Of a stretch of DNA of 64,000 nt, positions 5,761 to 14,127 are shown in pieces. The notes below the pieces were generated by a model. It was not told where the DNA came from. It saw nothing but the letters and a program-made list of their open reading frames with translations, and searched no databases. Position numbers and translations under genes: made by a program. Source of the DNA: Pseudomonas yamanorum. GTDB taxonomy: Bacteria > Pseudomonadota > Gammaproteobacteria > Pseudomonadales > Pseudomonadaceae. The stretch lies in the NCBI RefSeq assembly GCF_900105735.1, contig NZ_LT629793.1:4216001-4280000 (forward strand), in the 5' to 3' direction. The stretch's first letter is position 1. Every line of letters starts with the position of its first letter.

Positions 5761-6183
5761 TTAGTCGTGCGTGAGGTCGGCGTAGTCTATTTGGCCTTCA
5801 AATGCTAAACAGGCAATCCAGTGTAGGCTCTGAGGAAAAATGTAGGTGTGTTGGGGGAAGTCTGCAAAGATCTCGAGTGCTTTCTTGATATCATTAATAT
5901 TTATAGAGTAAGCGTGCTCAATAGCGGAGTCACTCAGGAAAATTACTTGCTGAATTCCGAGGCTACCAAGCTTTTCTGCAACGATAGTTAGCGCTAAAGG
6001 TCTGTCCATATAGCTTAGTTCTGTAGCGTTCTCCAAAGCTTTCCAGTCTATTTTGCTTCCGGCGAAAATGATTTTATTTTGAATGTTATTTATAAAATCT
6101 TCCTGCTCCTTGTCTGATAGTCGCTCGTAAAGGATGCCATTTTTATTTAGCGTTTCTACAAGGTTGTTATCGAAGTAGTTCAT
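5761..6183 (-). CDS. hypothetical protein, probable immunity protein for the Rhs toxin
   Basis: A 140-residue soluble, acidic protein (starts MNYFDNNLVETLNKNG, ends YADLTHD) with no signal peptide or membrane segment and no family I can name with confidence. It starts one base after the rhs stop codon. Its codons are far more AT-rich than those of the surrounding core genes, as is usual for immunity genes swapped together with Rhs/CDI toxin tips. Position, size and composition are the evidence; the immunity role is inferred. Confidence 0.7.
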   Translation of the reverse strand: MNYFDNNLVETLNKNGILYERLSDKEQEDFINNIQNKIIFAGSKIDWKALENATELSYMDRPLALTIVAEKLGSLGIQQVIFLSDSAIEHAYSININDIKKALEIFADFPQHTYIFPQSLHWIACLAFEGQIDYADLTHD

Positions 6184-6184
6184 G

Positions 6185-9100
6185 TTATTTGAATCTCTTG
6201 TTTATTTTCATTACTAGTTTGTGTGAGCCCTCGAAAAGATAGTGAGGTCCTTTCTTTTTTTCAGACCAAACGTTTATGTGCGCACCATTCTTTTTGTCGT
6301 GTTCGACGCGGAATCCAGTTTTTTCATCCATTGTTTGCATACCTATGGGTTTGCCCGAACTGGTGCCGAACTTTCCAAGTTTAGGCTTTTCCGCATGGAA
6401 ATTATTTTCTCGCAGCCACCTCAGAGCCTTGTTTAAAGCCTGTTCATACGTTGAGGATCTAACTTCACCACCTGTTTCTGGTGGCTTTTCCTCATGACGC
6501 TGTCGGGCTGTTCTTTCTTTTTTACCCGGACAGTTCCCGGGAACGCATGCTAACCCCAGCGGGTCCACCCACCCCGTAGGGTTGGGCACGTACTGGTATC
6601 CGTTCAGCCCACCCGCCAGTTTCACCGGATCAGGCGTCAGATAGCGACCAACATCCGGATTGTAGTAGCGATGACGGTTGTAGTGCAGCCCGCTTTCCGG
6701 GTCGAAGTATTGGCCCTGGAAGCGCAGCGGGTTGGTAACGGTGTTGACGTCCAGCTTCGCGATTTGGCCGTAGGCGCGGTAGTGCGCGGACCAGACGATT
6801 TCGCCGTCGGGCGCGGCGAGTTCCTGCGGGGTGCCGAGGTGGTCGAGTTGGTAGTGGAAGGGTTTTACGTCTTCCGGGCCGTAGCCCTTCAGCAGAACTA
6901 ACGGGCGGAAGCTGTTGGGTTCGTAGAGGTAGCTCTGGTGGTGATCGGCGCGGTGTTCGGCGATCAGTGCGTCGCCTTGCCAGAAGAATTCGGTAGTTTG
7001 ACCGTTCACGACTTTTGCGACGCGCCGATCAAAAGGATCGTAGCGGTAGCTGGCCTGGGTGCCGTCGGGTTGGGTGACGGCAATCAGCCGGTGCTGGCAG
7101 TCGTAGCGGTATTCGGTGACCAGTTGTTGAGCGCGGCCCCGGCGTTCGCGCAGGAGGTTGCCGAAGGCGTCGTAGTCGTAATGACGGTCGCCTTGCATCA
7201 AGAGCCGGTTGCCTTTGACGATGCCGGGGCCGACGCGGTCTTGCATCAGCAGGTTGCCCGCCGGGTCGTGGACGAAGCGTTCCTGCAAGTCGTGCGAGTG
7301 GTTGGCGCGGGTCAGGCGGTCGAGTGGGTCATAGTGGTAGTCGTGCTGGCCTTTGCGGGTGTCGAGGATGCGGGTGAGGTTGCCGCGTTTGTCGTAGTCG
7401 TACTGGCGGCGCTGGTGGCGTTGTTCCTGTTGGGTGATGGCGTGGGCGTGCAGGCGGCCCTGGTCGTCGTAGTGGTAGTGGCTGAGGAGTTGGCCTTGCT
7501 GGCGTTGGTGCTCGCGGCCGGATTTGAACAGGTGCGAGGTGAGCAGGTTGCCGTTGAGTTCGATGGTGGCGAGGTCGCCGCCTTTTTCGTGGTGGAAAGC
7601 GAGGCGGTTGTTATCGGGCAGGCGCAGGTAGTTGAGTTGCCCGCATTCGTCGTAGCCATAGCGCAACGTGCCCCAGCCTTGGTGCTCGGCGGTGAGGCGG
7701 TTTTGCAGGTCGTATTCGTAATGGAGCGGCCAGTGACCGTCGTCGACGCTGAGGAGGTTGCCGAGGCGGTCGTAGGTGTAATCAACCGTGCTGCGGTCGG
7801 GCAGGGTTTTTCTTACGAGACGACCGGCCGCATCGCGCGCATAACCGGTAACCAGCTGACTGCCATCGTCGCCGTACTCGGTCTTTTCCAGCAGATGCCC
7901 GGCGAGGTCGTAGACATAGGCAGTACGGCGCCCATCAAAGCTGGTTTCCTGTTGGATCAGGCCGTTGGCGTGGTACTCAAGCCGATAGGTTTCGCCGACC
8001 TCGTTTTCGATTTCGGTCAGTAACAACCGGGCATTGTCGTAGCGGTATTTGAGTTGCGTGCCGTCCGGATTAATCCGATGGCTGATCAGGTGCAGACCGT
8101 CGGCATACTCATAGCGCGTAACCCGGCCCAGCTCGTCGCGCTCGGCAGTGATTTTTCCGTAGGGGTTGTAGCTGAATTCGCGAGTGGCGCCGTCCGGCTG
8201 AATCACCTTCAGCAAGCGTCCCATGGCGTCCCACTGATACTGGGTCAGCGCGCCATGCTCATCCTCGCAAGCAACCTGCCGCCCCAGGTCGTCGTAGCGA
8301 TAGTGCCTTACGCTACCATTCGCCAGCTTCTCCTCAATGAGCTGACCACGTTCGTCCCAGATCAGCCGCTGACTGCTGTTGTCCGGATACCAGACCCCGG
8401 TGAGCTTTCCGTGTTGGGTGTAGGTGTATTCGGTGTAGTTACCATCCGGATCGGTCTTGCGGGTGATATCGCCTTGATCGTTACGTTGGTATTTCCACAC
8501 CGCGTCACCACGGCGTACAACCCGCACGAAACCGTTGTCATGCTCGTAGGACGTGGGTGCATCGTCACCGGGAAACAGCGCAATCAACCGACCGGCTTCG
8601 TCGTACTGATAGGCCGTCACCGCTCCCAGCGGGTCCTGCTCGACCGTCAGGCGGCCTTTTTCATCGTAGGATTTGAAGTGCTGCGCGCCGTCCGGATCGA
8701 TCCGCTGCACCAGCCGTGCGCGCTGGTCGTGGACGTAGACTTCCTGGCTGCCATCGGCGTTGTGTACGGTGACAGTGCCGTTGTCATCCCACACATACCG
8801 CGTGTCCATCTGCGAAAAGCTGGCCCAGTGGCGGACACACCTTGCAGCCTTGCCAGACCGTTCCCACTCCCAAAAGAAACTCGCCCCACCGGCCAGTTCC
8901 CGCTCCAGGATTACCTGCTGATCGTCGTATCGATAACGCTCGCTTTCGCCTACCGCGTTGGTTGCTTCGATCAACCGCCACGCATCGTCGTACGTGTAGG
9001 CAACAACGTTCTGCTCGGTAACCCAGCCGATTTCCCGCTGCACCTGATAGTCGACCGCAACGATGTGTCCACGGTCATACCGCAGCAGCAATCCTTGGCC

Positions 9101-10744
9101 GGCGCCGTTATCGATACGCTGAATCCGTCCGGAATAGTCGCGGGCAATACGCAGCCGGTTGTCGTACGCGTCGCTGATCGACGTCAGCACACCGTCGCGG
9201 AAGTGGTAGAAAAGGGAGGCTTGAGCCAGCACCAACTCATCGGGCAAAGCACCCAGATAAATCGCCGCTTCCGCCAGGCTATTGGTGATGGCCGGCCGTG
9301 CAGCAGAAGGCAGGGGAAAGGTAGTGCTGCGGTTTTCGTGATCGGTCCACACCACCGACTCACCGCTCACCACCAACCGCTGCGCCAGCGCATGACTCCA
9401 GCCAAACCCCAACCCGCAATCCAACTCCACGGCACTGCTGCGATACAGCCGCGTCCAGGCAAACGGCAGCACACCCTCCAACGAGCCGTCAGTGAGGGTC
9501 AGCAGTTCCTCACCGGTAACCATTGATACCGGGCAGCCATTGGTTGCGGTCTTATCTGCGGGCGCCGCCGCGTCACCACCGGGATTCTTCGCAGGGGAGG
9601 GAACATCATCGACATGCGCTTTCTCGCGAACCACAGTGTTCTGACGCGGCCCCCAGCGCACCTGCACGCCACCTTTTTTCAACCCCTCCACAGCGCCCCG
9701 AACCGCCACGGCCTTATAGTGATTCACTGCCCCCATAAAGCTCTGAAGAACGTCGAAAATACCCTTCACAAACTCAATGGCTGCCTCAACAATCCGAGCG
9801 CCATACCTGAGCGCACGCGAACTCAGATAAGCGATGCCCGCCGCCGGCAAAACAACCGTCAGCAACGCAGCCACCAACAAGTCGATCAGCAACGACACCA
9901 CAAACCCGGCCACCGCCTCGGCGGTACTCCCGGCCACCTCACTGGGCGGCAACGCCGACAGCCAAATCATCGCCGTGCGCAACATCAGGTACAGCGCCGC
10001 CTCATCACTGGCCAGCAGCATCGCCTGTTCCATAACTTTTGGCGCAGTGCGAGTCAGCTCCATCAATTCGCTGGCTTTCGCCCCGAGGCTTTCAAACAGC
10101 TTGCCGGGGTCTTTGAAGATCTCCTGCACCTGCTTGATGGCGTCCCACACCCCGCTGATCGCCGCCCAACTTCCCGCCAGCACGCCATTGCCAATCGCGC
10201 TTGAAGTGGACCTTTCCCAGTGCGGCCGGAAACCACCCCATTGCTTGCGAAGCCAGCTTTCCAGGTCCGCGGTCAAACCGTCGTATGACGAAAACAGTGC
10301 CTCGACGTGCTCGTCCGAAACACCGCCTTGCACCCGTATCCGGTAACGCTGGCCGGCCAGGCAATGGTGAGAGCCTTTTCCCTGTTCATCGAGCATGACG
10401 ACGGTAGAGCTGCCGTCGTCCAGCCCAATTACCTCAATCGGGATACCTCCCAGCGGCACGTCATACACCGACTCGAACTTGCTCTCGATCTCCAGTACGC
10501 CACTGGCCTCACAGCGCACCACCGTCGAGAAGTTGTCATCGGCCATGCTCACCGACTTGCTTGAATCCCCTACCCGAATGATCCGGTCCATTCCCAGCAA
10601 CGACGGCAAATCCGGTGCATGGCTGACCTTATCCAGCGCTTGCGAATACCAGGCGCCCACCTGCTGGCGATACACCGCCAGGCTCTGATGAAAGCCATCC
10701 AGTTCGTGTTCGATATGGGCAATGTGGGACGAAGAAGCAGTCAT
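6185..10744 (-). CDS. Rhs-family polymorphic toxin (orphan, no PAAR domain)
   Basis: A 1519-residue Rhs/YD-repeat protein. The N-terminal ~400 residues are not a PAAR domain; they include hydrophobic segments (about 275-310, VVSLLIDLLVAALLTVVLPAAG). Next come an Rhs-entry (DUF6531-like) region NGCPVSMVTGEELL...LPFAWTRLYRS and some twenty YD repeats (e.g. YRYDDQ, YEYDLQNRL). The RHS core ends in RYYNPDVGRYLTPDP...GWVDPLGLA, after which a tip of about 120 residues starts. The tip (KKERTARQRH... GAHINVWSEKKKGPHYLFEG... INKRFK) is the putative toxin, rich in Lys/His and possibly nuclease-like. I cannot assign its family. Base composition drops towards AT in the tip. No vgrG, hcp or tss gene is nearby, so delivery would need a T6SS encoded elsewhere. 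Confidence 0.93.
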   Translation of the reverse strand: MTASSSHIAHIEHELDGFHQSLAVYRQQVGAWYSQALDKVSHAPDLPSLLGMDRIIRVGDSSKSVSMADDNFSTVVRCEASGVLEIESKFESVYDVPLGGIPIEVIGLDDGSSTVVMLDEQGKGSHHCLAGQRYRIRVQGGVSDEHVEALFSSYDGLTADLESWLRKQWGGFRPHWERSTSSAIGNGVLAGSWAAISGVWDAIKQVQEIFKDPGKLFESLGAKASELMELTRTAPKVMEQAMLLASDEAALYLMLRTAMIWLSALPPSEVAGSTAEAVAGFVVSLLIDLLVAALLTVVLPAAGIAYLSSRALRYGARIVEAAIEFVKGIFDVLQSFMGAVNHYKAVAVRGAVEGLKKGGVQVRWGPRQNTVVREKAHVDDVPSPAKNPGGDAAAPADKTATNGCPVSMVTGEELLTLTDGSLEGVLPFAWTRLYRSSAVELDCGLGFGWSHALAQRLVVSGESVVWTDHENRSTTFPLPSAARPAITNSLAEAAIYLGALPDELVLAQASLFYHFRDGVLTSISDAYDNRLRIARDYSGRIQRIDNGAGQGLLLRYDRGHIVAVDYQVQREIGWVTEQNVVAYTYDDAWRLIEATNAVGESERYRYDDQQVILERELAGGASFFWEWERSGKAARCVRHWASFSQMDTRYVWDDNGTVTVHNADGSQEVYVHDQRARLVQRIDPDGAQHFKSYDEKGRLTVEQDPLGAVTAYQYDEAGRLIALFPGDDAPTSYEHDNGFVRVVRRGDAVWKYQRNDQGDITRKTDPDGNYTEYTYTQHGKLTGVWYPDNSSQRLIWDERGQLIEEKLANGSVRHYRYDDLGRQVACEDEHGALTQYQWDAMGRLLKVIQPDGATREFSYNPYGKITAERDELGRVTRYEYADGLHLISHRINPDGTQLKYRYDNARLLLTEIENEVGETYRLEYHANGLIQQETSFDGRRTAYVYDLAGHLLEKTEYGDDGSQLVTGYARDAAGRLVRKTLPDRSTVDYTYDRLGNLLSVDDGHWPLHYEYDLQNRLTAEHQGWGTLRYGYDECGQLNYLRLPDNNRLAFHHEKGGDLATIELNGNLLTSHLFKSGREHQRQQGQLLSHYHYDDQGRLHAHAITQQEQRHQRRQYDYDKRGNLTRILDTRKGQHDYHYDPLDRLTRANHSHDLQERFVHDPAGNLLMQDRVGPGIVKGNRLLMQGDRHYDYDAFGNLLRERRGRAQQLVTEYRYDCQHRLIAVTQPDGTQASYRYDPFDRRVAKVVNGQTTEFFWQGDALIAEHRADHHQSYLYEPNSFRPLVLLKGYGPEDVKPFHYQLDHLGTPQELAAPDGEIVWSAHYRAYGQIAKLDVNTVTNPLRFQGQYFDPESGLHYNRHRYYNPDVGRYLTPDPVKLAGGLNGYQYVPNPTGWVDPLGLACVPGNCPGKKERTARQRHEEKPPETGGEVRSSTYEQALNKALRWLRENNFHAEKPKLGKFGTSSGKPIGMQTMDEKTGFRVEHDKKNGAHINVWSEKKKGPHYLFEGSHKLVMKINKRFK

Positions 10745-10891: not shown

Positions 10892-11284
10892 TCAGCTCAT
10901 TGACTGCAGTGGCGTTTTCAGTGGTGCGCTGCATTGACCCTGAGCGTCCTTGAGACTGGCTTCAAATTCGACCAATCCCTTGTGCATCTTTTGCAGCGCT
11001 TCGATTTGCCTCACCAGTTCCTGCTTTTTGTTGGTGATTGCCTTGTCCGCCAGCTCCCAGGGCAAGCCATCACCAGGATGCCCACCCAGAATCGCCTGCA
11101 ACTCCTTGAGCTTGAAACCCAACTGCTGAGCGCACTTGATGAACGTCAGCAGCTCGACACTTTGCGTGGAGTAAATGCGATAACGACCTTCCCGCTGCGG
11201 CGGCGGCAACAGGCCGATGGCCTCATAGTGACGAATCGCTTTGATGGTTGTGCCCGATAGTTGCGCGGCTTTGCCGATGTACAT
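10892..11284 (-). CDS. MerR family transcriptional regulator
   Basis: A 130-residue MerR-type activator/repressor. The N-terminal winged HTH is clear (MYIGKAAQLSGTTIKAIRHYEAIGLLPPPQREGRYRIYS), followed by a dimerisation helix (KKQELVRQIEALQKMHKGLVEFE). There is only one cysteine near the C-terminus (QGQCSAP), so a metal sensor of the MerR/CueR type is unlikely. Its start lies 62 bases inside the preceding oxidoreductase gene, so the two are co-transcribed and it probably controls that gene in response to a quinone, electrophile or redox signal (inferred). Confidence 0.9.
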   Translation of the reverse strand: MYIGKAAQLSGTTIKAIRHYEAIGLLPPPQREGRYRIYSTQSVELLTFIKCAQQLGFKLKELQAILGGHPGDGLPWELADKAITNKKQELVRQIEALQKMHKGLVEFEASLKDAQGQCSAPLKTPLQSMS

Positions 11285-11867
11285 GAAAAGTCCTTTTCAC
11301 AAAGAGTGCGCCGGCCTGTTTCAGCCACTGTTCCCGCTGTGCTGGCGTAGAGCCCAACACCGGCCCGAACTGCAATGTCTTGATCGGCTGGATGCCACAA
11401 AACTCCAGCGTCGTCTTGCGCATCTGATGCAGCGCGGGCATGCGGTAGAACCACCTGTAATACCACGCCGGCGTGTCCAGGGTCACCAGCAAATGCGCGG
11501 TTCGGCCCTTCAGGAGTTTGTCGGGGAAGGCCTTGCCTTTGCGGTATTTGAAGGCGAAACCGGATAGGAAAATTCGGTCGATAAACCCCTTCATCAATGC
11601 CGGAATGCCACCCCACCAGATGGGGAAAACAAACGTCAGGTGATTGGCCCACAAGATGTCGGATTGGGCGTTGAGCAGGTCGGGTTCCAGTGGCTGGGCC
11701 TGGCTGTAGCCGTTGTGCAGGATGGGGTCGAAAGTCAGGTCGCCCAGGCGTAGGACGCATACTTCGTGGCCGGCGGTTTTGGCGCTGGTGATGTAGGTGT
11801 CGGTGAGGGCGGAGCAGAAGCTGGTGCTGGAAGGGTGGCCGAGGATGACCAGGATGCGTTGGCTCAT
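11223..11867 (-). CDS. NAD(P)H-dependent oxidoreductase, flavodoxin-like fold
   Basis: A 214-residue member of the flavodoxin_2 (NQO1/MdaB/KefF-like) family that reduces quinones or similar electrophiles with FMN/FAD. The N-terminal RILVILGHPSSTSFCSAL is the phosphate-binding loop. The central FVFPIWWGGIPALMKGFIDRIF is the family signature, and HLLVTLDTPAWYYR follows. The last ~30 residues (RTFHVHRQSRATIGHNHQSDSSL) overlap the start of the merR gene and do not look conserved, so the C-terminus may have been extended by loss of an earlier stop. Confidence 0.87.
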   Translation of the reverse strand: MSQRILVILGHPSSTSFCSALTDTYITSAKTAGHEVCVLRLGDLTFDPILHNGYSQAQPLEPDLLNAQSDILWANHLTFVFPIWWGGIPALMKGFIDRIFLSGFAFKYRKGKAFPDKLLKGRTAHLLVTLDTPAWYYRWFYRMPALHQMRKTTLEFCGIQPIKTLQFGPVLGSTPAQREQWLKQAGALFVKRTFHVHRQSRATIGHNHQSDSSL

Positions 11868-12063
11868 GGCGGTGGGGTCCTGAAAGTTGGGGGTTCAGGG
11901 TGAGGTGTGACCTTAGGGGGAGAGTCAAGAAGAGGCGGTGATTGGGAATGGCCAGGAAGACTGATCCCTTTCATTTGCAGGACGTTTCCTAGAGAATTCC
12001 AAGCGCTTGCGCCAGCAAAATCCCGCGACTAGTCTGCGTTCCGTCACTGCATATTCGGTGATC
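11868..12063. other. gene-free stretch upstream of the antisense-RNA leader
   Basis: About 200 bases between the divergent oxidoreductase gene and the C4-like array. It must contain promoters in both directions, but I see no convincing -35/-10 pair and no open frame with a ribosome-binding site. Confidence 0.5.
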
Positions 12064-12263
12064 GGGTTTAGTCGCCCGGACAACGCTAGGCGTACAGCGC
12101 CATCTCAAAGCCAGGTATTTATCGCCTGCACTTTATGGTGGCTGTGCGCAGGGCACCTTCGGGTGCGCCGGTGCCTAGCGGCCGGTCGACTAACCTGCGT
12201 ACAGCTGCCACCTTCTGATCGTTTAGTCGCGAGAGGTTAGTGGTTTAACTCACTGCTAGGAGT
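12064..12263 (+). ncRNA. C4 / P4 CI-type antisense RNA leader (seqA-seqB-seqC array)
   Basis: The segment resembles the immunity RNAs of phages P1 (C4) and P4 (CI RNA). A GC-rich hairpin with a UUCG loop lies at 12153-12166 (GCACC-TTCG-GGTGC). It is followed by a 'seqB' arm at 12173-12196, made of GCCTAGCG, a short linker and GTCGACTAACCT. Upstream 'seqA' (12066-12091) is near-complementary to the whole arm: TTAGTCG pairs with CGACTAA, and CGCTAGGC is the exact complement of GCCTAGCG. Downstream 'seqC' offers TTAGTCG (12223-12229), AGGTTAGT (12234-12241, complementary to ACTAACCT) and GCTAGG (12255-12260), which overlaps the Shine-Dalgarno of the next gene. The processed RNA could thus block its own leader and the downstream start. 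The family assignment is from memory of the consensus. Confidence 0.7.
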
Positions 12264-12269
12264 TCTACC

Positions 12270-12581
12270 ATGGTCAAAGTTACCCCCGATCCACCCGCAT
12301 TCCATAAATCCTTACTTCGTGACACTGACGCCTCGCGCCGAGTGATTGATCACTACCTGAAAGCGCCGGACGCGCAGCCGTCCCCCAATCCGTTTACCGT
12401 TGATGACGAGCTGAGTTTCGAAGATGCGCTGGCCCATGCTGCCGAGTTGCTGCATTGCGCCGTGGCGACCGCCCAGGCGTCGACCGAGCCGCTGAACGGC
12501 GCGCAGCGGGCGGTGATGCATTTGGTGGAGATGTCGAAGGTGGTGGTGGATAGGGCGTTGGATTGCTTGCAGCCGAGGTGA
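12270..12581 (+). CDS. DUF6124 (DUF3077-like) family protein
   Basis: A 103-residue soluble protein of a Pseudomonas-restricted family of unknown function: MVKVTPDPPAFHKSLL at the N-terminus, DRALDCLQP near the C-terminus and an alpha-helical Ala/Val-rich middle (FEDALAHAAELLHCAVATAQ). The ATG at 12270 follows TAGGAG at about 12257-12262. That Shine-Dalgarno is embedded in the seqC part of the antisense-RNA array, so translation is probably gated by the RNA. It has no signal peptide. Any function is unknown. Confidence 0.85.
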   Translation: MVKVTPDPPAFHKSLLRDTDASRRVIDHYLKAPDAQPSPNPFTVDDELSFEDALAHAAELLHCAVATAQASTEPLNGAQRAVMHLVEMSKVVVDRALDCLQPR

Positions 12582-12704: not shown

Positions 12705-12944
12705 TCAGGCGTATGGCTTGAAGTCGTTGTTGTCGCGAGTGAGTAACTGCATCAGCTTGGGATGGATGAAGAGCTTTTCCTTGCCAACCTGAACCTCTTG
12801 CAGAACGCCGATGGCGACTAGTTCTTTGAGGTAACGGGAGGCTGCTTGACGCTGGGCAATCTGTTTGTCGACGACGTTGCTGATGCGGCAGTAGGGCTGT
12901 TCGAAAATGACGTCTACCAGCTCGCGGGTGTGCACTACGTGTCG
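12705..12944 (-). pseudogene. C-terminal relic of a second Fic family gene
   Basis: About 76-80 codons match the winged-helix tail that ends a different Fic subfamily (ELVDVIFEQPYCRISNVVDK, AASRYLKELVAIGVLQEV, GKEKLFIHPKLMQLL). The Fic catalytic domain is missing and a stop (TAG) lies just upstream at 12945-12947. No start with a ribosome-binding site is visible. It is a deletion remnant and is not derived from the intact fic gene at 3974-5113, whose tail differs. Confidence 0.75.
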
Positions 12945-13350: not shown

Positions 13351-14127
13351 TCAATTTCCCAGCTCCAGATCCGATTTAGAGCCTTCGTAGCCTAATAAAT
13401 GCTCATCCAGCGGCACCGGCGGGCGGCGGTTATTCAGTGTCGCCCACCAGAATACCCAACCCAGAATCTCAAAGTTCTGCTCGTGCCGCTGTTCGTAGGT
13501 CAAAAACTCGTCCGGATGCTCGGCGCTGTTGTGGCTGCGCATCCGCAGGCCGCCTCCGGGGCGGTTGTAGAGGTATTTGATCCTTAGCATTCCATCGTGC
13601 TGTACCGCGTAGATTTCGCCGTCGATGATCTGTTTGCGGCCACAGTCGATGGCGAGGGTACTTCCGTCCTGGATGATGTCGATCATGCTGTTGCCGACCA
13701 TGTAGGCACCGAGTGCCCGCTCCGGGCTTACGCCGATGGTTTCAAGGGCGTGCAGAGAGAGGCGGATGCTTTCGGTTGAGGTGAAGGTGGGGTGGAGGGG
13801 AATCTCCACGTCGATTTTTACCAGGCCGGAGACCGGGTGGGTGATGTAGTTGCCAGTGCTTTCCCTGGCGATACGGTGGGAGTGGTCTGCATCGGGGCCG
13901 TCCAGTTGGTAGTTGACGGGTGGATGTTTGGGGCCTTCGCCGGTACGCAGCCAACGGCTGGTGACGCACAGCAGTTCTGCGATCTCGTTGAGTCGGCCCA
14001 TGGGGACGCCGCGTTTGAACCAGTTGTTTACGTGTTGAGGCGTAACATCGCGGTTCTTGGCGAAGTCGGAAGCGGAAAGATGAACTTCCCGTAATAGCAC
14101 TCTTAAGCGATCACCTGATGTATTCAT
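13351..14127 (-). CDS. XRE/S24 phage-type repressor (LexA-like, PrtR/CI class)
   Basis: A 258-residue repressor. The N-terminal HTH (residues ~1-65) reads LREVHLSASDFAKNRDVTPQHVNNWFKRG. The C-terminal peptidase S24 domain has the catalytic serine in MVGNSMIDII and the lysine in GMLRIKYLYN, so RecA-stimulated self-cleavage is expected. Pseudomonads use such repressors to hold prophages and pyocin/tailocin genes silent, but no phage structural or lysis gene is present here. It is probably a stand-alone regulator or a prophage leftover. A likely operator lies upstream at 14219-14245. Confidence 0.9.
   Translation of the reverse strand: MNTSGDRLRVLLREVHLSASDFAKNRDVTPQHVNNWFKRGVPMGRLNEIAELLCVTSRWLRTGEGPKHPPVNYQLDGPDADHSHRIARESTGNYITHPVSGLVKIDVEIPLHPTFTSTESIRLSLHALETIGVSPERALGAYMVGNSMIDIIQDGSTLAIDCGRKQIIDGEIYAVQHDGMLRIKYLYNRPGGGLRMRSHNSAEHPDEFLTYEQRHEQNFEILGWVFWWATLNNRRPPVPLDEHLLGYEGSKSDLELGN

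Follow-up and report, generated by a model that had tools for sequence, protein, structure and literature searches.

Chromosomal C4-type antisense RNAs with differing pairing codes ahead of DUF6124 genes in Pseudomonas

An antisense RNA of the C4/P4 CI type lies ahead of a chromosomal DUF6124 gene in Pseudomonas yamanorum, as the original prediction had proposed for a 64-kb stretch of this genome (hereafter the window), and this is supported by an Rfam match, by conservation and by covariation. C4 was first defined as a phage immunity RNA. Here, we describe its chromosomal relatives, which we consider very likely to repress each its own linked gene; the pairing is read from sequence, while processing and repression would follow better-known systems.

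Scanning the window with the Rfam covariance models, as had been suggested, returned a single family above its cut-off, the C4 antisense RNA family RF01695, which matches the forward strand at 12131-12215 with 75.9 bits (cut-off 45, E 4.9e-13). Folded alone, this RNA has a predicted minimum-energy structure of three stems (-50.0 kcal/mol), with which the Rfam cmscan alignment agrees. Two segments are unpaired in this predicted fold, namely b' (GCCTAGCG, 12173-12180), which occupies the second hairpin loop, and a' (CGACTAA, 12187-12193), which lies in the linker and is assigned from sequence, predicted fold and covariation. Besides the score and the three-stem fold, the locus displays the other features of the family, that is, downstream a2 and b2 sites with b2 at the ribosome-binding site, and upstream a1 and b1 sites. 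The predicted RNase P 5' end is G12137 (in GGT), which would give an RNA of ~77 nt if processing is as in P1, and GG[CT] is found at the expected position in 168 of 169 modules. By analogy with P1 and Acinetobacter baumannii, and given this conserved GG, RNase P would process the C4 RNA at the locus, and by analogy with P1 the RNA would repress DUF6124 translation.

Mutually complementary segments had been proposed to surround a hairpin, and all the strings then named, including ACTAACCT (12189-12196), are indeed present; the summed match of a' and b' to their own flanks was reached in none of 20,000 mononucleotide shuffles of these flanks. On the upstream side of the C4, and like all the sites on the forward strand, a1 (TTTAGTCG, 12067-12074, core 12068-12074) is part of the hairpin CGGG-TTTAGTCG-CCCG (12063-12078) and is followed by the b1 target CGCTAGGC (12084-12091). 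On the downstream side, a2 (TTTAGTCG, 12222-12229, core 12223-12229) is part of the hairpin TCG-TTTAGTCG-CGA (TCGTTTAGTCGCGA, 12219-12232), and both a cores are predicted to sit in short hairpin loops. The b2 site (GCTAGG, 12255-12260) overlaps the Shine-Dalgarno sequence AGGAG (12258-12262), contained in GCTAGGAG (12255-12262) ahead of the ATG at 12270, and lies in the loop of another predicted hairpin, whose stem contains part of the Shine-Dalgarno. The downstream pairing as first drawn therefore needs partial revision: the overlap of b2 with the Shine-Dalgarno stands, but the downstream a site is TTTAGTCG at 12222-12229 and not AGGTTAGT (12234-12241), which is present but was rejected as a partner since it is not conserved in four orthologues. 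Cofolding of the whole C4 yielded a gain of only -1.7 kcal/mol with a1b1 and -3.7 with a2b2, which counts against our reading, in a method that cannot score loop-loop contacts.

Upstream of these sites, we recognize a candidate sigma-70-type promoter on the same strand (12006-12035), with CTTGCG (12006-12011) on the -35 side and TAGTCT (12030-12035) as the -10 hexamer. A TANNCT hexamer located 35-38 nt before a1 is the sole such match in 104 of 167 modules, while its absence in 55 of the 167 counts against our reading; CTTGTGC (45) and CTTGCGC (38) are among the commonest 7-mers upstream of modules. Farther upstream than the promoter, GACGTTTCC(N)AGA(N)AAT (11981-11998 in the window) recurs in several modules (e.g., L002, L004 and L012), its counts being inflated by orthologous loci. 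The leader resembles two Rfam families on the forward strand, in both cases below cut-off: RF03163, a model added later to Rfam for the a1/b1 target (c4-a1b1 motif), at 12029-12082 (37.1 bits, cut-off 46.7, E 1e-7) and, weakly, isrK (RF01394) at 12043-12122 (29.5 bits, cut-off 50, E 2e-4), a score that does not make the leader a member of the isrK family. Weinberg et al. (2010) reported both the c4 motif and the c4-a1b1 motif in Proteobacteria and phages, the available text mentioning neither linked genes nor copy numbers in Pseudomonas (PMC2864571).

The complementary segments are conserved in related strains and covary, with compensatory changes in a1/b1, a'/b' and a2/b2, as the original prediction demanded. 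The same holds for its question of whether other DUF6124 genes share the leader, since a C4 lies at most 150 nt upstream at every one of the 38 loci with a DUF6124 homologue in named Pseudomonas records. Using both flanks, orthologous groups of 17, 12 and 3 loci could be defined, which L161, L170 and L172 join by one flank. In the orthologous P. yamanorum locus L158, which is 90.5% and 93.7% identical to the window on the two sides, two positions of the b code have changed in concert in b1, b' and b2, by two compensatory double changes on either side, and pairing is kept; this could also have happened by tract exchange with another module. Over the window and four orthologues, pairs are Watson-Crick in 35/35 a cells (a1-a') and 30/30 b cells, compared with 0.13-0.51 standard pairs when the partner is slid by 1-3 columns as a control (five sequences). 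In the 12-locus group, which we take to represent Pseudomonas syringae and relatives, a single-base difference in the a code (4 versus 8 loci) is mirrored in a1, a' and a2 in 12/12 loci, and a pairs are Watson-Crick in 84/84 cells, twice. The b pairs of this group are standard in 92/94 cells for b1-b' and 89/96 for b'-b2, the remaining 2/94 and 7/96 non-standard cells counting against our reading. In the 17-locus group, a' is fixed and b' varies among loci, with a change in b2 that is visible by inspection. Covariation in these alignments thus supports pairing of a'/b' both with a2/b2 and with a1/b1. As for a clean empty site indicative of mobility, the relative L197 lacks a C4 at this locus but has another gene between the same flanks, with no readable insertion boundary.

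Self-matching of this kind extends to paralogous modules. We compared 131 distinct modules, derived from 134 loci (137 C4 matches), in a set that over-represents high-scoring C4s and contains 50 of the 55 C4 matches of G049, the five weakest (L140-L144) having been left out. At a threshold of 6 nt or longer, a' matches its own upstream region in 129/131 modules and its own downstream region in 129/131, and b' matches its own downstream region in only 112/131 and upstream region in 93/131, counts that weigh against our reading; non-self match rates in the 131 modules are 12-20% for a' and 20-38% for b'. When partners were permuted among the 16 modules of the window's genome (G000) and among the 50 of G049, the observed self sums were reached in 0/5,000 permutations for all six scores. 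Chance complementarity is therefore disfavored. The codes are diverse, with 34 different a' 7-mers among all 131 modules and 27 among the 50 of G049. Considering a' and b' together on downstream sites, self alone ranks as the best target in 12/16 modules of G000 and 39/50 of G049, and the other 4/16 and 11/50, in which it is not the unique best target, count against our reading. Matches of at least 6 nt at both sites occur in 53/66 self pairs versus 25/2,690 within-genome non-self pairs. Among G049 paralogues, 51 pairs have 75-98% protein identity, of which 10% have the a code in common and none shows a b cross-match of 7 or more; near-identical proteins thus sit behind different codes. In 205 between-genome pairs of like protein identity, which are probably mostly orthologues, a is shared in 85% and b in 20%, each locus outside G000 and G049 being treated as its own genome and some same-genome pairs thereby being counted as between-genome. 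We discarded avoidance of cross-talk within a genome as a result, since the comparison (25/2,690 within versus 25/1,600 between, Fisher p 0.04; a' alone p 0.68) is confounded by shared descent between genomes.

The window's genome (7.09 Mb, one contig) contains 16 C4 matches, all above cut-off, and 16 DUF6124 matches above cut-off. A DUF6124 gene follows the C4 in 12 of the 16 cases, a DUF3077 gene in one (L003) and a gene of an 89-aa family in two (L001 and L007); behind the C4 of L006, no ORF was called in the usual position. The four of 16 DUF6124 genes that have no C4 count against our reading. One of them, L135, retains an a1-like leader, and another, L138, is truncated behind its leader, as if the C4 had been lost through deletion between the repeated a/b sites; at L136 and L137, no leader was seen by eye. 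A PrrF RNA gene (L137:258-407, reverse strand) adjoins the C4-less DUF6124/DUF3077 gene. Counts for our wider surveys are lower bounds, with at most 61 candidates per genome scored in the genus and at most 18, under stricter filters, in the class: at least 54 of 59 same-genus genomes (own included) carry C4, 53 of them above cut-off, and 47 carry DUF6124, with totals at E<=0.001 of at least 1,002 C4 and 696 DUF6124 matches. Copy numbers of C4 and DUF6124 in the 59 genomes are correlated (Spearman 0.88, uncorrected for phylogeny), and DUF6124 is likewise absent from the five genomes that lack C4. The highest number is seen in G049, in which 52 of the 55 C4 matches are above cut-off. Across the class, at least 12 of 229 sampled genomes have a C4, or 11 of 228 without the window's own, all of other genera and with one to four each.

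The presumed regulated gene (12270-12581, forward strand) encodes a 103-aa protein that matches PF19619 (DUF6124) with 45.1 bits (cut-off 27) and also PF11275 (DUF3077) with 27.8 bits (cut-off 21), two families that are hardly mentioned in the open-licence literature that we searched. Its closest homologue in named records, in P. yamanorum IPO3780, is 97% identical. DUF6124 is under purifying selection as judged from its coding sequences, with a dN/dS of 0.05-0.09 relative to the four orthologues, medians of 0.11, 0.20 and 0.15 in the three orthogroups, and a range of 0.05-0.39 over usable pairs in these groups (235/236). AlphaFold2 predicts a helical hairpin at residues 50-98 (pLDDT ~90; overall 78.3, pTM 0.49), with which fold searches were uninformative (lowest E 0.83 against the PDB and 0.20 against BFVD), while a profile search of the PDB gave one match, with an E of 1.5. 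Homology with P1 Icd was rejected (hhalign probability 0.1). According to Pfam, the gene is preceded by a MerR regulator (10892-11284) and a flavodoxin-fold oxidoreductase (11223-11867), and followed, on the reverse strand, by a fragment from the C-terminus of a SoFic-like Fic protein (12705-12935) and by an S24/CI-like repressor (13351-14127). At the position of the Fic fragment, L159 has a longer Fic-like ORF, the corresponding DNA being absent in L158 and L160. The original prediction had seen no phage structural genes nearby, to which it is relevant that one of the five ORFs around the locus submitted to Pfam is the S24 repressor. The latter has 41% identity over 113 aa to PrtR of the DVM-2008 phage record, in which a C4-DUF6124 pair is also found beside prtR. 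A link between the C4 module and such repressors was rejected, since among the loci then compared, with flanks mostly of 1.5 kb, only the window copy, L158-L160 and DVM-2008 have one nearby. Elsewhere in the window, a 1,519-aa RHS-repeat-like protein (5761-10744, reverse strand) with a 140-aa ORF directly behind it looks by eye like a polymorphic toxin and its partner.

DUF6124 is one of several cargos. A heuristic called the cargo of 155/169 modules, with representatives checked using Pfam and PHROGs, and 115 of these are DUF6124/DUF3077-like, 14 belong to a family of 52-57 aa, 13 to the 89-aa family, 7 are Bro-N-like and 6 are single. An N-terminal [NDT]P[PSAT] motif is present in 107/115 DUF6124-type proteins and 14/14 members of the 52-aa family and is rarer in two other families (3/13 and 1/7); it may act in the protein, as a signal, or in the RNA, as an element immediately downstream of the start codon. 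On the phage side, we considered at least 85 loci (five phage records and 80 stretches of viral contigs, which may contain host flanks, among the matches listed), with at least 82 C4s read. The 68 phage-side modules with a called ORF among the matches listed comprise 35 DUF6124-like, 20 52-aa-type, 3 89-aa-type, 2 Bro-N and 8 other cargos. The Bro-N proteins are those of the Pseudomonas phages PAJU2 and CF74b, each with a C4 ahead. Two small elements bearing an integrase and a primase, phiAH14b (L229) and vB_Pae_U10 (L230), have a C4 for which their record tables show no feature, with a 52-aa-type ORF as cargo in phiAH14b and a similar N-terminus in vB_Pae_U10. The DVM-2008 record has its C4-DUF6124 pair near the record end. 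The window's DUF6124 protein has no match at E<=0.01 in 50,697 phage and 72,556 plasmid records, in a tblastn search that also missed the DUF6124 of DVM-2008, and no PHROG.

How does the window module compare with known C4-type systems? In the c4-icd-ant operon of P1, the annotated order a1-b1-C4-a2-b2-gene is the same as in the window, b2 is at the ribosome site in both, and spacings are close (29 nt in P1 and 32 in the window from a2 to the start of b2, and 18 and 15 nt from b2 to the gene start). In contrast to P1/P7 C4, the window module is chromosomal, is present in many copies per genome and is linked to DUF6124 rather than icd/ant. Within the cI gene of the P4 record, RF01695 scores 74.9 bits, with an isrK match of 60.8 bits upstream. 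The module does not, as first thought, combine the order of P4 with the ribosome-site overlap of P1, since the whole order, up to icd, is annotated in P1 itself and P4 cI fits the same Rfam model. P4 CI is described as acting through premature transcription termination (PMC4825925), whereas nothing at the window locus shows termination. An isrK-type leader and a C4-type RNA on one transcript, as we propose here, are reported for Gifsy-1 (PMC4825925), in which STnc1160 has been likened to CI, and for Burkholderia cenocepacia (PMC4603805); however, the Gifsy-1 unit is a prophage antirepressor unit, and the isrK match in the window is below cut-off. The closest precedent in numbers is A. baumannii AB5075, whose Group 1 C4-like sRNAs (21 members, to its authors' knowledge the first large such group in one genome) are chromosomal, expressed and apparently processed by RNase P, with a variable a', and also b' according to the discussion, and with targets left open (PMC5320573). 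The available text of that report names no linked target gene, whereas in Pseudomonas most of the RNAs have a linked gene with covarying sites. The intergenic repeat R178 (101 bp, 18/28/9 copies in SBW25/Pf0-1/Pf-5, with an internal inverted repeat) (PMC2718517) could, at a guess from its description rather than its sequence, be C4. We found no description of C4-DUF6124 units in the open-licence literature, judged on titles and the starts of abstracts, and the linked gene family, the private codes and the code switching at a fixed locus are new as far as we searched.

By analogy with P1 and P4, we envisage that one transcript starting near 12040 would comprise the a1/b1 leader, the C4, and then a2/b2 with the DUF6124 coding region. 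RNase P would free the C4 RNA at G12137, as P1 and the conserved GG suggest. In the freed RNA, the b' loop would pair with b2 across the Shine-Dalgarno and the a' linker with the loop of the a2 hairpin, which as in P1 would block DUF6124 translation. Covariation also supports pairing of a'/b' with the upstream a1/b1, through which C4 may limit its own transcript or the leader may act as a sponge. Judging from the many modules with differing codes in one genome, a C4 RNA should in most cases act mainly on the gene linked to it. We weakly infer that the DUF6124 protein is probably dose-sensitive and has to be kept off for most of the time. More tentatively, and as a view that we find plausible rather than favored, Pseudomonas chromosomes would contain a large repertoire of insulated C4 switches, each locking one of a family of near-identical small proteins, in which duplication would be followed by new codes under selection against cross-talk, and a1/b1, a'/b' and a2/b2 would be rewritten in concert, also where the locus stays the same.

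Much the same features might be expected of a selfish module resembling a type I toxin-antitoxin system, in which DUF6124 or other cargo would be harmful and C4 its RNA antidote. An antisense RNA adjoining a conserved small gene, its many copies with differing codes, several cargo families (DUF6124/DUF3077, 89-aa, 52-aa and Bro-N) and the control of the cell-division inhibitor icd by P1's C4 all speak for this, but DUF6124 is unlike Icd, no PADLOC model matches four cargo proteins, and four DUF6124 genes of the window's genome, one of them truncated, exist without C4, so we find this reading doubtful. We think it improbable that the module is a purely cis-acting leader, the a/b pairings being alternative, attenuator-like folds of one transcript with no free C4 acting in trans, even though all sites would share a transcript and the a1 and a2 sites are each predicted to form a hairpin loop. 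A run of at least five T is present within 60 nt ahead of the C4 in 62/169 modules, which makes termination at that point possible in some, but this count made us reject an intrinsic terminator as a general feature. What weighs against a cis-only device is the RNase P-type GG in 168/169 modules, the apparent processing of C4 relatives reported in A. baumannii (PMC5320573), and the differing codes of paralogues, for which such a device has no need.

Equally unlikely, in our view, is a resident immunity library, in which chromosomal C4s would act in trans on incoming phages or satellites with C4-controlled antirepressors. This option was raised for A. baumannii by Weiss et al. (PMC5320573), and there are suitable carriers, since PAJU2 and CF74b have a C4 before Bro-N, and phiAH14b and vB_Pae_U10 have a C4. 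However, most modules have their own covarying cis target, and when five phage-side modules were compared with 169 genome-derived C4s, nothing convincing was found: for four of the five, the best C4 reached only 13-14 nt over a plus b and, as we read the matches listed, was never long at both, and the best match to phiAH14b, although 17 nt, includes an a match shifted off the loop. This comparison is a weak one, with few phage modules and a self a'-a2 match of only 4 nt in PAJU2 and CF74b. Finally, that the module is a decaying prophage remnant without function seems to us scarcely credible. The architecture is as in phages, and the loss of the C4 at L135 and the truncation of L138 would fit decay, but three-point compensatory changes at orthologous loci, a dN/dS of 0.05-0.39 and groups of 17, 12 and 3 loci that are syntenic on both sides speak against it, and neither lost pairing nor frameshifts were seen in most close relatives among the loci read. 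We thus retain repression of each linked gene by its own C4 as the preferred reading.

If the tentative view of a repertoire of insulated switches is correct, C4 RNAs would have a chromosomal, nonimmune role, and a single cell would naturally contain dozens of orthogonal RNA regulators. C4 is here a multicopy element in most sampled Pseudomonas genomes (at least 54 of 59), and its codes amount to natural RNA switches in one cell that are apparently insulated from each other. Through the matched sites, trans-action and cross-talk can be tested directly in laboratory strains, as can the role of DUF6124.
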